29,005 nt of DNA from a virus, in IMG/VR virus record IMGVR_UViG_3300046163_000007, positions 1 to 29,005 of that record; one strand, given 5' to 3'. A model generated the notes under the pieces. It was not told the DNA's origin and made no database searches. It was given only the letters and a program-made list of their open reading frames with translations. The position numbers were made by a program, and so were the translations under genes. Below are positions 1-23,069 of the stretch, piece by piece (the first letter of the stretch is position 1; each line of letters starts with the position of its first letter).

Positions 1-1085
1 AAGTCTGTAAACTCTAGCGGTTGTAACGTCTTAAAATATAGTTTTAAGCTAATATTATTATAAGCTAATATACTATCAAAGGCATCTATTAAAAGTGTCT
101 GAAATGGTCTAATAACTGTGTTATCCATTAGTATAGAAGCGGTCTTTAATTCATCAGCATTATTACCTAGTCCTGAACTATCCTTAATACCTAATAGCAT
201 AGGGCTTACAACCCTATGACCTACCATTATTTTTTTGGTGCATTCTTCACTTACATATTGGTAGGTGTTATGTGCATCACTAATTTGTAATGTTTCTACT
301 GTCGCTGCATTTTCAGGATTATCATTAAATGCAAGAATAAATTTAGCACCATTAACCCCTGTAAATTTTTGTGCTATACGATTTTCTAACATTTGCCTTT
401 CTTCGGCATTAGGTGTACCATTATTAAACTGTATAAGGGTATTAGGGCTAAAGGAGTGTGCAGTATTGTTGAGATGGAATATTGATACCTGTTCTTCTGT
501 TTCACACCAACTTAAAACACCTTGATAATCAGGACTTGAATAGTATTTATATCCTGCTCTATAAGGTTTTACATACACTATCTCTATTGGCTCTTTAGAA
601 TATCCAAAAGCAGGTATTCTAGTACAGTCTTTTACGTTCTTAACTTTAGTCCAATCATCAGAGTAGTAATACGCTTCTATTTCTCCTTTATCGTTGCATT
701 TTTCTGCTCTTAAATTCTCAACAGGTATATGTTCTACACGTGCCACAGTCTTGCGGTCTTTTGAGTATATAACTTGCATTGAGCATTGACCCATTAATTT
801 AAGGTCGTAGCATAATTTACGCACACAATCCTTATGAAACAAAGACACCATTTTAGCGTATTGTTCAGGCTTTTTATTACTATTTAAAGCATCTAAACCT
901 TTGCCATATATCATCTCGCTAATACCATTGATAATAGCGTTGTTAGTTGGGCTTCCGTTGTAGCGGTCTATTAGATAACTAAAATAATTGTTATCAGCAC
1001 CATAACTTACCCACTCCTTATTGCTTTTTTCTACAATTTCAGGGCTTGTATAGGTACTTAAATTAACTACTCTTAAATCGTTCAT
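1..1085 (-). CDS. Phage portal protein, N-terminal 361 residues (runs off left end)
   Basis: The frame is open from the ATG at 1085-1083 to base 1 and has no stop in the window. The portal forms the dodecameric ring at the capsid vertex through which DNA is packaged and ejected. Recognisable features of the Bacteroidota portal type are the early segment around residues 28-60 (GADNNYFSYLIDRYNGSPTN), the central segment with the HIPVENLRAEK motif near 119-129, and the conserved SGLGNNADEL near 304-313. The start overlaps the stop of the upstream 116-residue gene in an ATGA. The missing C-terminus probably lies at the other end of the window (28319-29005). Joining the ends would need one extra base to stay in frame. 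Family assignment is from recognition of sequence features, not from a search. Confidence 0.85.
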   Translation of the reverse strand, partial: MNDLRVVNLSTYTSPEIVEKSNKEWVSYGADNNYFSYLIDRYNGSPTNNAIINGISEMIYGKGLDALNSNKKPEQYAKMVSLFHKDCVRKLCYDLKLMGQCSMQVIYSKDRKTVARVEHIPVENLRAEKCNDKGEIEAYYYSDDWTKVKNVKDCTRIPAFGYSKEPIEIVYVKPYRAGYKYYSSPDYQGVLSWCETEEQVSIFHLNNTAHSFSPNTLIQFNNGTPNAEERQMLENRIAQKFTGVNGAKFILAFNDNPENAATVETLQISDAHNTYQYVSEECTKKIMVGHRVVSPMLLGIKDSSGLGNNADELKTASILMDNTVIRPFQTLLIDAFDSILAYNNISLKLYFKTLQPLEFTD

Positions 1086-5094: not shown

Positions 5095-6975
5095 TTATAG
5101 TGTTGCACCCTCTACAATATTGTTTTCTAAACTTTGTGCAGTTGTAACATCATTAGCTACTACATACGCCTGTACAGGTTGCTGTGCTTGACCGCCTACT
5201 GCTTCTGCTAATTGGCTTGTTTCTGTTGCACCCACTACATTAAAACTAGGGGGTTGTGATGCTGCAGCAGGTGTACTAGCACCGCCACCACCACCGAAAG
5301 AACTAGCAACACTACTAGCAGAACTTGTAGCAGATTTTATAGCACCTATTATTCCTGCTGCTTGTGCAGCATATCCTATTAACATTGGTATATTTTGAGG
5401 GAAGCCAATTTTTGCAGTTTGTGCTGTACCCTCTGCAGATGCTACTGTACTTTTTGCTACTGCTAACTTGCTAAATGTTAAAGTCTTTTTAGCTTCCATT
5501 ATCATTTCTTTTAACGCTAAACCTTGTTTAACTATTAAAAGTGCTTTGCCTACACCTGTTTCTGCACCTGCTAAACTAATTGCATCGTCAAGGGCTTTTT
5601 GTTTTGCTGCAGTCTTTTGTTGTTCTAGAGCTATTTCAGCATCTGTTATTTTCTTATCTTCTTCTAATTTCTTTTGTTTCCTCTCTGCATCTTTTAAATC
5701 AAATTCTTCTTGTTTTAATTTTTTAGCTTCATCTCTAGCAGCTTCTAATTCATCAGTTTTGATATTATTTGCTTCAGCTTGTGCTATTAAATTATCGTAA
5801 TGTTCTTGTATTTTAATTAACTCTAAATCTCTTTTTTCTTGTTCAGATACTGCTTCTGCATCTCTTAATGTTTTCTTTAAATCTGCTAATTCTTTAGCAT
5901 CAGATTTTTCTTGTGCTGTAACCTCACGTCTTGAAGTTAGTAACTCTGTACTTAATCTTTTTTGTAGGTTAAGCCTTTGTGTTTCTTTTTGTATTACTTC
6001 TGCTTCTAAGCGTGCCTGTTCGTCTAAATCTTCTTTATTACTTTTTGTTAAAGCGTTTTCAGTACGTTTAGCTTCTAGTCTTAATTGACTTACTGCAATT
6101 TCTTTAGCTGCTAATTCATCACTTACCTTACCTGCTTCTTCTAAAAATTTAATACGTTCTTGTGCTGTAAACTTATCTTTATTAACTGCTTTTTCTCTTA
6201 ACTCTGCTATTTTCCTTTCAGCCTCAGCACGTTCTACTACTAAATTCCTTGCTAGTTTTTCAGCTTGCGCCCTTTGGTCTGCTATCTTTGCTGCTGCGCT
6301 TGCATCTGCAGCTATTTCTTTACCAAACTCTTTAACTGCATTGGTTGCCTTGTCTATACTATTTTCAACACCTGTAAAGCTATCTACAAAACTACTACCT
6401 GCCTTTTTTGCATCGTCTAAAGCTGCTTTAAATTCTCCACTAAATACATTTTTTATTGCACTACCTAAAAAACCTACAGTATCTAATATTGCCTTAAATC
6501 TATTTGTTATATTTTCAACTAACAGATTTTTAAAGTTTATTAAGGCTTGTTTAGGGTTTTCAAATACAGATATTATACCCTCACCTAAATCAGCTATTAG
6601 GTCTAATAAGTTTCCTGTAACACTTCCAATTACACCTAGTATTTTAGCAAATTTATTTTGTCCCTCTTCGCTTCGTGTAAAGGCTTGTGTTAAAGACGTA
6701 ATAGCTATTAAAAGCGCACCTATGCCTGTTCCTATAATAGCAATACGTAAACTTTTAAAACCCCCTATAACAGTTTTTAACGTGCCTTTTAATGCTTTAA
6801 ATTTACTAACTGCACCGCCTGTTGCTTTGTCTACTGTACTACTCATTTGTTGAGTAGATGCACTAGTATTTTTAACCTCTTTGTTTGTTTCTTTTAGGCT
6901 TTCTGTTAGTTTGTCAATACCACCTGCAGCCTTGACTGCATCAACATCAATTACTATCTTTTTTTCTATTGCCAT
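5095..6975 (-). CDS. Tape measure protein
   Basis: This is a 626-residue protein with the usual tape measure layout. Residues 1-75 are polar and helical. A hydrophobic segment at about 76-97 (IIGTGIGALLIAITSL) is followed by more amphipathic helices to about 210. A long Ala/Glu/Lys/Arg coiled coil covers roughly 215-480. A second hydrophobic, Gly/Ala-rich region lies near 540-600, and the C-terminus is low in complexity. It would set tail length. At about 1.5 angstrom per residue this suggests a tail near 90-95 nm, on the short side for siphoviruses (inference). It overlaps the 46-residue gene upstream by 10 bases. The tail assembly chaperone is not directly upstream, as it usually is, but about 5 kb away. 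Confidence 0.8.
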   Translation of the reverse strand: MAIEKKIVIDVDAVKAAGGIDKLTESLKETNKEVKNTSASTQQMSSTVDKATGGAVSKFKALKGTLKTVIGGFKSLRIAIIGTGIGALLIAITSLTQAFTRSEEGQNKFAKILGVIGSVTGNLLDLIADLGEGIISVFENPKQALINFKNLLVENITNRFKAILDTVGFLGSAIKNVFSGEFKAALDDAKKAGSSFVDSFTGVENSIDKATNAVKEFGKEIAADASAAAKIADQRAQAEKLARNLVVERAEAERKIAELREKAVNKDKFTAQERIKFLEEAGKVSDELAAKEIAVSQLRLEAKRTENALTKSNKEDLDEQARLEAEVIQKETQRLNLQKRLSTELLTSRREVTAQEKSDAKELADLKKTLRDAEAVSEQEKRDLELIKIQEHYDNLIAQAEANNIKTDELEAARDEAKKLKQEEFDLKDAERKQKKLEEDKKITDAEIALEQQKTAAKQKALDDAISLAGAETGVGKALLIVKQGLALKEMIMEAKKTLTFSKLAVAKSTVASAEGTAQTAKIGFPQNIPMLIGYAAQAAGIIGAIKSATSSASSVASSFGGGGGASTPAAASQPPSFNVVGATETSQLAEAVGGQAQQPVQAYVVANDVTTAQSLENNIVEGATL

Positions 6976-11823: not shown

Positions 11824-11934
11824 TTATTTGAATTTACTTTTTATTTGTCTTGCTTCTAATTCGTTTTTTTCTTTTGTGTACGTTAAGTATGTTAAGCACT
11901 CGTGCACTCCTAGTTTAGTGATATGTTCAAATTT
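11824..11934 (-). CDS. -1 frameshift extension of the tail assembly chaperone (GT-like tail)
   Basis: A frame with no start codon of its own continues from the slippery heptamer A AAT TTG (11934-11928) to a TAA at 11826-11824. It adds 34 residues beginning EHITKLGVHECLTYLTYTKE. Tandem slippage by -1 in the gene at 11910-12554 enters exactly this frame and yields a product of about 243 residues instead of 214. Many long-tailed phages make such G and GT proteins, in which the GT extension recruits the tail tube subunit. The extension is Lys/Glu-rich, helical and well formed up to its stop, and a leading frame of this kind is expected to be under selection. Confidence 0.7.
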   Translation of the reverse strand, partial: KFEHITKLGVHECLTYLTYTKEKNELEARQIKSKFK

Positions 11935-12554
11935 TGTAATATCTCCGTTAGATAGTCCATAGATTGAATTGTACCACCCCCATTTGGTTGTGAAGTTAGA
12001 TACTCCGCTAAGGTCTGCTCGTTCTTCTTGTCCAAAGAGTTCAGCATAACTAGTGATAAGTCCTTGCCTAAATTGTAAAAAAAAACAACCGCACCTAAAA
12101 CCGCATCTAAAGGCATATCCTTTGCTATTTCGCTTGTATTAGGCTCATAGTCCTTTATAGTGTATCTATTGCCTTTGCGGTGTTCTATTGGTCTATATAG
12201 TACGTTTACTGCTCTGTGTAAATTATCATTATCGCCTATAAAAGTATCTAGGTCTACATATTCTCCAAAACTCATATCTTCAAGACTTGGTATAAACCCA
12301 TATTCAATACCATTCATTTTGAACATTGATATAAGTTGATGCTTAGTATCAAACATATTATTTATAATGCCACAAATCTCTACTATATCCGTTGCTTTCA
12401 TATTCCTTACTACTACCTCAGGAACATTGCAAAATATTTCAATAGTCTTTAGTTGTAGGTCTGTTTCGCTTAACTCCTGCAGCTTTGCGTATTCTTGATA
12501 CTGTCCTAAGGTTATCTCGTTTAGGGTTGTGGGTATTCTTATATTTACATTCAT
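11910..12554 (-). CDS. Tail assembly chaperone (lambda gpG-like), zero-frame product
   Basis: This 214-residue, mainly helical protein starts MNVNIRIPTTLNEITLGQYQ. It contains CNVPEVVVRNMKATDIVEIC near residues 47-66 and MSFGEYVDLDTFIGD near 98-112. Bacteroidota phages carry similar proteins before the tape measure region. The zero frame ends in a TAG at 11912-11910, but the canonical slippery sequence A AAT TTG at 11934-11928 leads into a 34-codon extension, the hallmark of G/GT chaperones that load tail tube subunits on the tape measure. The gene starts just after a terminator and late-type motif B. Unusually, four virion genes and one small gene separate it from the tape measure gene. Confidence 0.7.
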   Translation of the reverse strand: MNVNIRIPTTLNEITLGQYQEYAKLQELSETDLQLKTIEIFCNVPEVVVRNMKATDIVEICGIINNMFDTKHQLISMFKMNGIEYGFIPSLEDMSFGEYVDLDTFIGDNDNLHRAVNVLYRPIEHRKGNRYTIKDYEPNTSEIAKDMPLDAVLGAVVFFYNLGKDLSLVMLNSLDKKNEQTLAEYLTSQPNGGGTIQSMDYLTEILQNLNISLN

Positions 12555-12985: not shown

Positions 12986-14194
12986 TTAGTGAACAATATA
13001 TCTACCTCTATTAGGGTTTTGTAATTGATAACCTACTGCATACCTAACCGCATCTATTAAGTGGTTGTATTTGTCTATTGGTGTGTTTGATTTGCGTTCT
13101 AACCAACGATAGTTATTTAGTTCTTTAATTAAATTAGTGCTATCAGGACTAACTACTAAATCATAGTCTTGTAATAGTGATATTCCATAAGTAACGCTAC
13201 CCTGCCCTTTAATTGATGGTAGTACATTGCACCCCTTTGCTTTTATTTCTGTTATTAGTCTAGGCTCTGCACTATCCCCTATTATTAAGCCATCTCTAGC
13301 GTGTTTTAAATTAAGTTCAGCTATTTGTGAAGTAGTTAATCTAGGTAGGTATACGCATTCTCTTAGATATATTGTTTTAGTGCTTGTATCTATGTTTGTT
13401 TCTATTAGTGTTGTTGGGTCTGCTGCAAATCCATAATCTTGTCCCCATACGGATACACCTTTACGCTTAAATTCTCCAATAGTCCAATTATCAAATATTA
13501 CACCCTCTGCTTTGTTTAACCACGCACCTAACATTTGTTGTTTATACTTTTCAGGTCTGCGTTCTCTCATTTGTGCTATTTGTTCTATGTAGCTTTTAGA
13601 TAGGTTATCTATGTTGTCTATGTATGTAGTGTGTATGTAGGTTGTATTGCCTTTGGTTGTATTGCTACCCTCTTGCACCCCTGCATCTTCAAAGAAACGT
13701 CTATATATAAAATGCTCTTTAGTAGTTGGGTTTAGTATTAGTATTACTCTATTATGTAAACCTTTTTCCCTTACAGATAAATCAATAGTATCAAACTTTT
13801 GTTCGTCTGTTAGTTCTTCAGCTTCATCTACTACCCACGTTGTAATACCTTGTAAAGATTTTAAGTTAGCGGTTTGGTCACCACTAGAAGTTTTAATACC
13901 TCTGAATATTATTTTGCTACCTGTCTTTTTGTTTAGTATTTCGTCTTTAGTAATATGAAAATGCTCTATTGACCCAAACTGTTCTAGCTTGTCTATAAAT
14001 TCAGGTATAATAGAAATGTATGCAGAAGTTAATGTATAGCGTGTAAATAGTATTGTATGCCCTGCTTGATATGTTAGCATAACTAGTAAAGCATTTATAG
14101 AAAATGACTTACCGCTACCACGACCACCACTAACTATAAAATACCTACTATCGCTTTCAACAATAGGCATATATTTCTTTTTTACCTCAATCAA
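12986..14194 (-). CDS. terL: Terminase large subunit
   Basis: This 402-residue protein is the packaging motor ATPase and headful/cohesive-end nuclease. The ATPase domain shows Walker A SGGRGSGKS (22-30) and Walker B TWVVDEAEE (119-127) with Asp123 and Glu124. The C-terminal RNase H-like nuclease has candidate metal ligands Asp253 (GQDYGFAADP), Asp307 (IIGDSAEPR) and Asp381 (HLIDAVRYAVGY). This is the PBSX/XtmB-like terminase_3 type of layout and the length is typical. It overlaps the small subunit gene by eight bases. The gene is intact. Confidence 0.95.
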   Translation of the reverse strand: MIEVKKKYMPIVESDSRYFIVSGGRGSGKSFSINALLVMLTYQAGHTILFTRYTLTSAYISIIPEFIDKLEQFGSIEHFHITKDEILNKKTGSKIIFRGIKTSSGDQTANLKSLQGITTWVVDEAEELTDEQKFDTIDLSVREKGLHNRVILILNPTTKEHFIYRRFFEDAGVQEGSNTTKGNTTYIHTTYIDNIDNLSKSYIEQIAQMRERRPEKYKQQMLGAWLNKAEGVIFDNWTIGEFKRKGVSVWGQDYGFAADPTTLIETNIDTSTKTIYLRECVYLPRLTTSQIAELNLKHARDGLIIGDSAEPRLITEIKAKGCNVLPSIKGQGSVTYGISLLQDYDLVVSPDSTNLIKELNNYRWLERKSNTPIDKYNHLIDAVRYAVGYQLQNPNRGRYIVH

Positions 14195-22883: not shown

Positions 22884-23069
22884 TTATTTATTTTTTTTTA
22901 ACCAATTAGAATACATTTCTATCTTGTCATTATGATACCAATGTAACTCTTTATCATTATAATTATCTTCATTATATTTAAATTCTTTTTTATGATAATC
23001 AAGTAATTGTTTTATTTCACTAATTTTTAAATTTGTTTTTACCTGTAATTTTTCTATTTCGCTTAACAT
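22884..23069 (-). CDS. Short helical early protein
   Basis: The 61-residue protein is helical throughout (MLSEIEKLQVKTNLKISEIK, then KQLLDYHKKEFKYN and a Trp/Tyr-rich end). No family is recognised. It begins with a one-base overlap with the 46-residue gene upstream. Confidence 0.55.
   Translation of the reverse strand: MLSEIEKLQVKTNLKISEIKQLLDYHKKEFKYNEDNYNDKELHWYHNDKIEMYSNWLKKNK

Follow-up and report, generated by a model that had tools for sequence, protein, structure and literature searches.

A minus-strand gene of the virus record IMGVR_UViG_3300046163_000007 contains a family-wide, dual-coding recoding site with a fixed run length: a run of nine Ts (T9) at 12085-12077, some 165 nt upstream of where the zero frame stops. 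The window analyzed here is that whole record, 29,005 bases. A programmed change to the -1 frame at the run, giving two isoforms with different C-terminal ends, is strongly supported by sequence comparison, since 389 homologues keep both frames open and carry a slippage-prone run. Taken together, the site, the presence of two jointly selected frames, and the constancy of the run length can be regarded as nearly certain on comparative grounds. The relatives, as recognized by their sequences, are hundreds of marine phages that keep nine or ten Ts.

RNA polymerase, rather than the ribosome, is modestly favored as the slipping machine by the conservation of run length. The complete account, in which phages probably infecting Flavobacteria make tail chaperone isoforms through polymerase slippage at 9-10 Ts, together with about 55 dual-coding codons in which both ends are selected, stands at roughly even confidence. 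An earlier note on this DNA had proposed a -1 shift in a tail assembly chaperone gene at a heptamer near the end of the zero frame; that interpretation is right in kind and wrong in place.

Locus, Reading Frames, and Predicted Products

The 214-aa minus-strand ORF (12554..11910) is present as the earlier note described it, and its diverse homologues match PHROG 32199 in 60 of 60 cases. The -1 frame does run to a stop at 11824 on the minus strand, as that note had stated, but it is open already from 12138 and not only from 11934. Read from the T9 run, it encodes FFLQFRQGLITSYAELFGQEERADLSGVSNFTTKWGWYNSIYGLSNGDITKFEHITKLGVHECLTYLTYTKEKNELEARQIKSKFK, a stretch that is conserved in its entirety in viral contigs, and protein homology of the -1 frame begins at the run. 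The -1 extension on which the earlier proposal depended is likewise kept among homologues, both frames being open in 389.

The short form is 214 aa and zero frame throughout, while the long form consists of zero-frame residues 1-159 followed by 84 residues from the -1 frame, or 243 aa. These are the sizes predicted in the earlier note, but the sequence of the long product departs from that prediction at about 50 residues. The agreement in size is coincidental: wherever in the shared open stretch a -1 shift took place, the total would be the same.

Table 1. Coordinates of the recoded gene, its sequence elements, and the probable tape measure gene in the window.
Feature	Position	Strand	Remarks
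Zero-frame ORF, 214 aa, candidate tail assembly chaperone (short form)	11910..12554	-	phrog_32199 match 1e-18
-1 frame extension, 84 codons + stop	11824..12078	-	LQFRQGL...KWGWYNSI...KSKFK; homologous extensions match phrog_38404
Candidate T9 slippage run (A9 on + strand), codons GTT TTT TTT TAC	12077..12085	-	9 or 10 Ts in 389 homologues
Heptamer T TTT TTT, in register, inside the run; site if the shift is ribosomal	12078..12084	-	read directly
Dual-coding stretch, ~55 codons in zero and -1 frames	11913..12076	-	synonymous variation lowered in both
+1-frame TAG	12068..12070	-	read directly; end point for transcripts minus one U
Heptamer A AAT TTG of the earlier note, not the shift site	11928..11934	-	AAATTTG in 55/158 indel-free relatives
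Probable tape measure protein, 626 aa	5095..6975	-	composition only; phrog_32985, unknown function

PHROG 38404 is matched by the extensions of 21 of 59 members, with a best value of 3.4e-25; the match of the window's own extension to this family falls below the cut-off. PHROG 32199 matches the zero-frame part and PHROG 38404 the -1 extensions, and the two are kept as unrelated families of unknown function. The sequence evidence says that they are two parts of one recoded gene.

AlphaFold (AF2) models of the shared domain have pLDDT mostly above 80 up to residue 160. The zero-frame tail is not well modelled (pLDDT 50 or below), and the -1 extension is predicted as a five-helix domain with pLDDT 87.5 (76 in the other model). 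In the +1 frame, a stop lies at most four codons from the run in 94% of homologues and may simply follow from the other two frames.

A T Run of Constant Length

Among 389 distinct homologous genes, the run is nine Ts long in 354 and ten in 35; runs of 7, 8, or 11 occur in none of them, with a search pattern that allowed 7-11. The run is found in all three registers. What is conserved is thus an A/T homopolymer of at least about nine, as a run and independent of register, which is the pattern expected of a transcriptional slippage site.

In the 80 loci found with the -1 segment, T9 is invariant and AAATTTG is often absent. Counted from the first -1 phenylalanine codon, the zero frame in these loci always runs 57 more codons and the -1 frame 85-87. 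Because a segment-based search could be biased by the run, relatives were resampled by features well downstream of it. The protein pattern F[SG]xKWGWY recovered T9 or T10 in 72 of 72 distinct loci with the region present, one further locus that starts inside the extension being left out of the count, and a DNA pattern for the same motif recovered T9 or T10 in 80 of 80. A scan for T8 counterparts with the most frequent codon context (VT8AYNNTTTAGG) gave 120 loci, and HMM comparison placed none of them in the family.

Homopolymer runs are error-prone and can vary through replication slippage, and the site could on that basis be a sequencing error, a pseudogene, or a case of phase variation. Such an origin has next to no probability. 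The run is constant at 9-10 over 389 sequences, cultured phages included, and phase variation would give a spread of lengths; purifying selection on both frames also counts against it. Assembly error and phase variation are rejected on the constant run length.

Changes on the two sides of the run compensate for each other. All five loci without a T before the core T TTT TTT (AGT, GCT, GGT) have two or three extra Ts downstream, and in a single locus the fourth codon begins with C, with two Ts standing before the core (TTT TTT TTT CTG). The five upstream cases fall in about four lineages of a tree built without the run, and T loss on one side with extra Ts on the other occurs in about five lineages overall. 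Locus L254 reads GGT TTT TTT TTT CAT and its close relative L251 reads GTT TTT TTT TAT CAT, so two mutually offsetting changes separate them. If both sides varied independently, about 5.6 runs shorter than nine would be expected; none was seen, an outcome reached in 0 of 20,000 shuffles by a test that ignores phylogeny. The evidence for compensation comprises six loci in total. Protein constraint explains part of the run, as V/L/I codons carry the middle T and Leu/Phe in the -1 frame forces a T after the core.

The gene, again with T9, also occurs on a Winogradskyella MAG contig (L324) from a flavobacterial genome bin, which suggests flavobacterial hosts. Another nine-base run is present in the window at 22891-22899, in the minus-strand gene 23069..22884, where it reads A9 on the coding strand. 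It closely precedes the stop of a 61-aa ORF, and slippage there would alter only a few residues.

Selection on Both Frames

In 38 representatives, zero-frame pS is 0.635 upstream of the run and 0.213 in the overlap, and -1-frame pS is 0.258 in the overlap and 0.594 after it. Upstream of the run, 48% of comparisons show a difference at zero-frame third positions, and after it 20% do; in the same representatives, -1 third positions differ in 19% within the overlap and in 37% past the zero-frame stop. Synonymous variation is down two- to threefold in each frame, which indicates that both are under purifying selection. When the -1 frame was synonymously recoded, the zero frame was open for a median of 5 codons, against 56 observed, and when the zero frame was recoded, the -1 frame stayed open in 1.1% of trials. 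These trials and the drop in pS together indicate that both frames are maintained. The zero-frame tail is shorter, at 15-24 codons, in a clade resembling phage P12024, so of the two parts the -1 domain varies less.

The heptamer favored in the earlier note, AAATTTG at 11934-11928, is real and lies in the register X XXY YYZ, its first A being codon position 3. A -1 ribosomal frameshift at A AAT TTG is nevertheless very improbable. A check of its conservation, which that note had called for, finds the position slippery in 56 of 158 indel-free homologues and not slippery in 102; the latter read AGATTTG, AAGTTTG, CGATTTG, and the like. Conservation of the -1 protein (FFLxFR...YxELF...KWGWY) starts at the T9 run, 150 nt upstream of the heptamer, and a shift at the heptamer would leave the intervening part untranslated. 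The -1 peptide QGLITSYAELFGQEER, encoded in the window near the run, could not be made by such a shift, and synonymous variation is lowered in both frames already upstream of the heptamer. The window contains 78 in-register XXXYYYZ heptamers in 7,789 codons, so an occurrence close to an ORF end is nothing out of the ordinary. As a shift site, A AAT TTG is rejected on its poor conservation and on -1 homology that starts upstream of it.

The -1 ORF could instead be a separate gene expressed by internal initiation, as the two halves are annotated in Nonlabens phages P12024S and P12024L and as their division into two PHROGs families would imply. This is again very improbable. Between the run and the KWGW motif, a Met is present in 11 of 389 extensions and any ATG, GTG, or TTG codon in 40 of 389, and conservation of the -1 sequence sets in at the run itself. 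An internal start in the -1 ORF is rejected on this scarcity of start codons.

The Slipping Machine

In the proposed mechanism, normal expression would yield the 214-aa protein. RNA polymerase would sometimes insert one extra U at the T9 run, because the whole 9-10 bp RNA-DNA hybrid would be homopolymeric and could realign. Normal translation of the U-added mRNA would then give the 243-aa protein, in which the first 159 residues are shared and are followed by a new end, an 84-residue, mostly helical domain from the -1 frame. A transcript that lost one U would give a third product, truncated about two residues past the run. Both isoforms would probably cooperate as tail assembly chaperones, like gpG and gpGT of lambda.

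RNA polymerase maintains an RNA-DNA hybrid of 9-10 bp and slips efficiently on nine A or T (PMC5009743); in many bacterial genomes, nine is also where avoidance of such runs sets in (PMC1088944). The constant run of 9-10 matches this hybrid, which favors transcriptional slippage over a ribosomal shift. The same preference is supported by the compensating changes and by the lack of an SD-like motif or structure. By simple folding, RNA structure up- or downstream of the run is not above shuffles (mean z -0.18 to 0.18), no nascent hairpin lies upstream of the run, and an SD-like motif precedes it in only 4% of homologues. Frameshift stimulators are common and not obligatory.

The competing explanation is -1 programmed ribosomal frameshifting at the T9 run, in which tandem tRNA-Phe slippage on T TTT TTT would produce the same two proteins. 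It is possible but less likely than polymerase slippage. Lambda G/GT is documented to use -1 ribosomal frameshifting, a mechanism conserved widely across other long-tailed phages (PMC5009743), and T TTT TTT stands in register, in the form X XXY YYZ, in all 389 homologues. Any nine-base T run contains this heptamer, so a ribosomal shift is possible at every one of them. The heptamer requires seven Ts, yet seven and eight never occur, and T losses on one side are offset by extra Ts on the other. The site is without an SD-like or structural stimulator by simple folding, and it lies about 165 nt from the zero-frame stop, a distance that averages 26-36 nt for annotated frameshifts in tail chaperones (PMC10885494). 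For transcriptional slippage, a literature search that was not exhaustive returned no report of a tail-chaperone-type gene expressed in this way, and one on flavophage frameshifting returned nothing specific.

Probable Chaperone Role and Genome Context

The gene is probably a tail assembly chaperone, judging by its two-isoform architecture and its context. As in recoding of the lambda G/GT type, two overlapping frames, predicted to be joined by -1 recoding, are both conserved. Alongside genes for the terminase, portal, and protease, the window encodes a probable tape measure protein, so the phage is likely long-tailed and should have a tail chaperone. The probable tape measure protein contains no Cys or Trp, is 53% A/E/K/L/Q/R, has one hydrophobic segment near residue 85, and has no Pfam or NCBIfam match. 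Four genes separate its gene from the recoded gene. The recoded gene comes after the terminase region and not directly before the tape measure gene, which counts against a chaperone role.

Similarity in sequence or fold to named tail-chaperone families is limited to weak matches. The recoded gene has no match in Pfam or NCBIfam, and 10 of 60 members match phrog_166, "tail protein", weakly (E 0.002-0.006). Neither a PDB fold search with both products nor a PDB sequence search with both profiles gave a match. Among the predicted viral structures of BFVD, the shared domain matches many unnamed phage proteins, and the best named match is one "tail assembly chaperone", a weak hit with E 0.06. The gene order of the window is unusual: the terminase large subunit (12986-14194, minus strand) comes first, followed by tail-type genes and then the protease, with the portal last (3-1085, minus strand).

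Relation to Known Systems

The lambda G/GT gene resembles the present one in that a single gene, here too probably of a long-tailed phage, has two products with a common N-terminal domain, the longer of which adds a C-terminal domain read in the -1 frame. In lambda the shift occurs on a heptamer close to the end of G (PMC5009743), whereas here the T9/T10 run precedes the zero-frame stop by about 165 nt, and the short form ends in a conserved C-terminus of its own, encoded in the overlap. The likeness to lambda drawn in the earlier note holds for the outcome; the mechanism is probably different, and membership of a tail-chaperone family, though plausible from context, is confirmed by no family model.

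Shigella mxiE and spa13 and Thermus thermophilus dnaX likewise contain an A/T homopolymer in coding sequence; the dnaX run is nine, and in mxiE an extra mRNA nucleotide joins two overlapping frames (PMC1088944, PMC5009743). Those are cellular or plasmid genes, whereas the present case is a large, divergent phage family with a long dual-coding overlap, in which slippage is deduced from sequence.

The cultured Nonlabens phages P12024S (genes 38/39) and P12024L (genes 40/41) have a homologue just after the terminase, with both frames and with T9 at the same place (CTT TTT TTT TAT). They differ in that the halves are annotated as two hypothetical genes and the zero-frame tail extends 24 codons past the run rather than about 55. 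At 6001-6695 in both phages (loci L162 and L163), genes 38/39 and 40/41 look like halves of one recoded gene.

Implications

The recoded gene unites two PHROG families whose functions are unknown and corrects the annotation of hundreds of environmental phages. It is an uncommon case of two alternative protein C-termini encoded by the same DNA in different frames, and the family provides a naturally replicated data set on the homopolymer length needed for slippage. If polymerase slippage is the true mechanism, phages would set the ratio of their two chaperones by different machines, either the ribosome or RNA polymerase, and the machine that slips would be readable from the conservation of run length.
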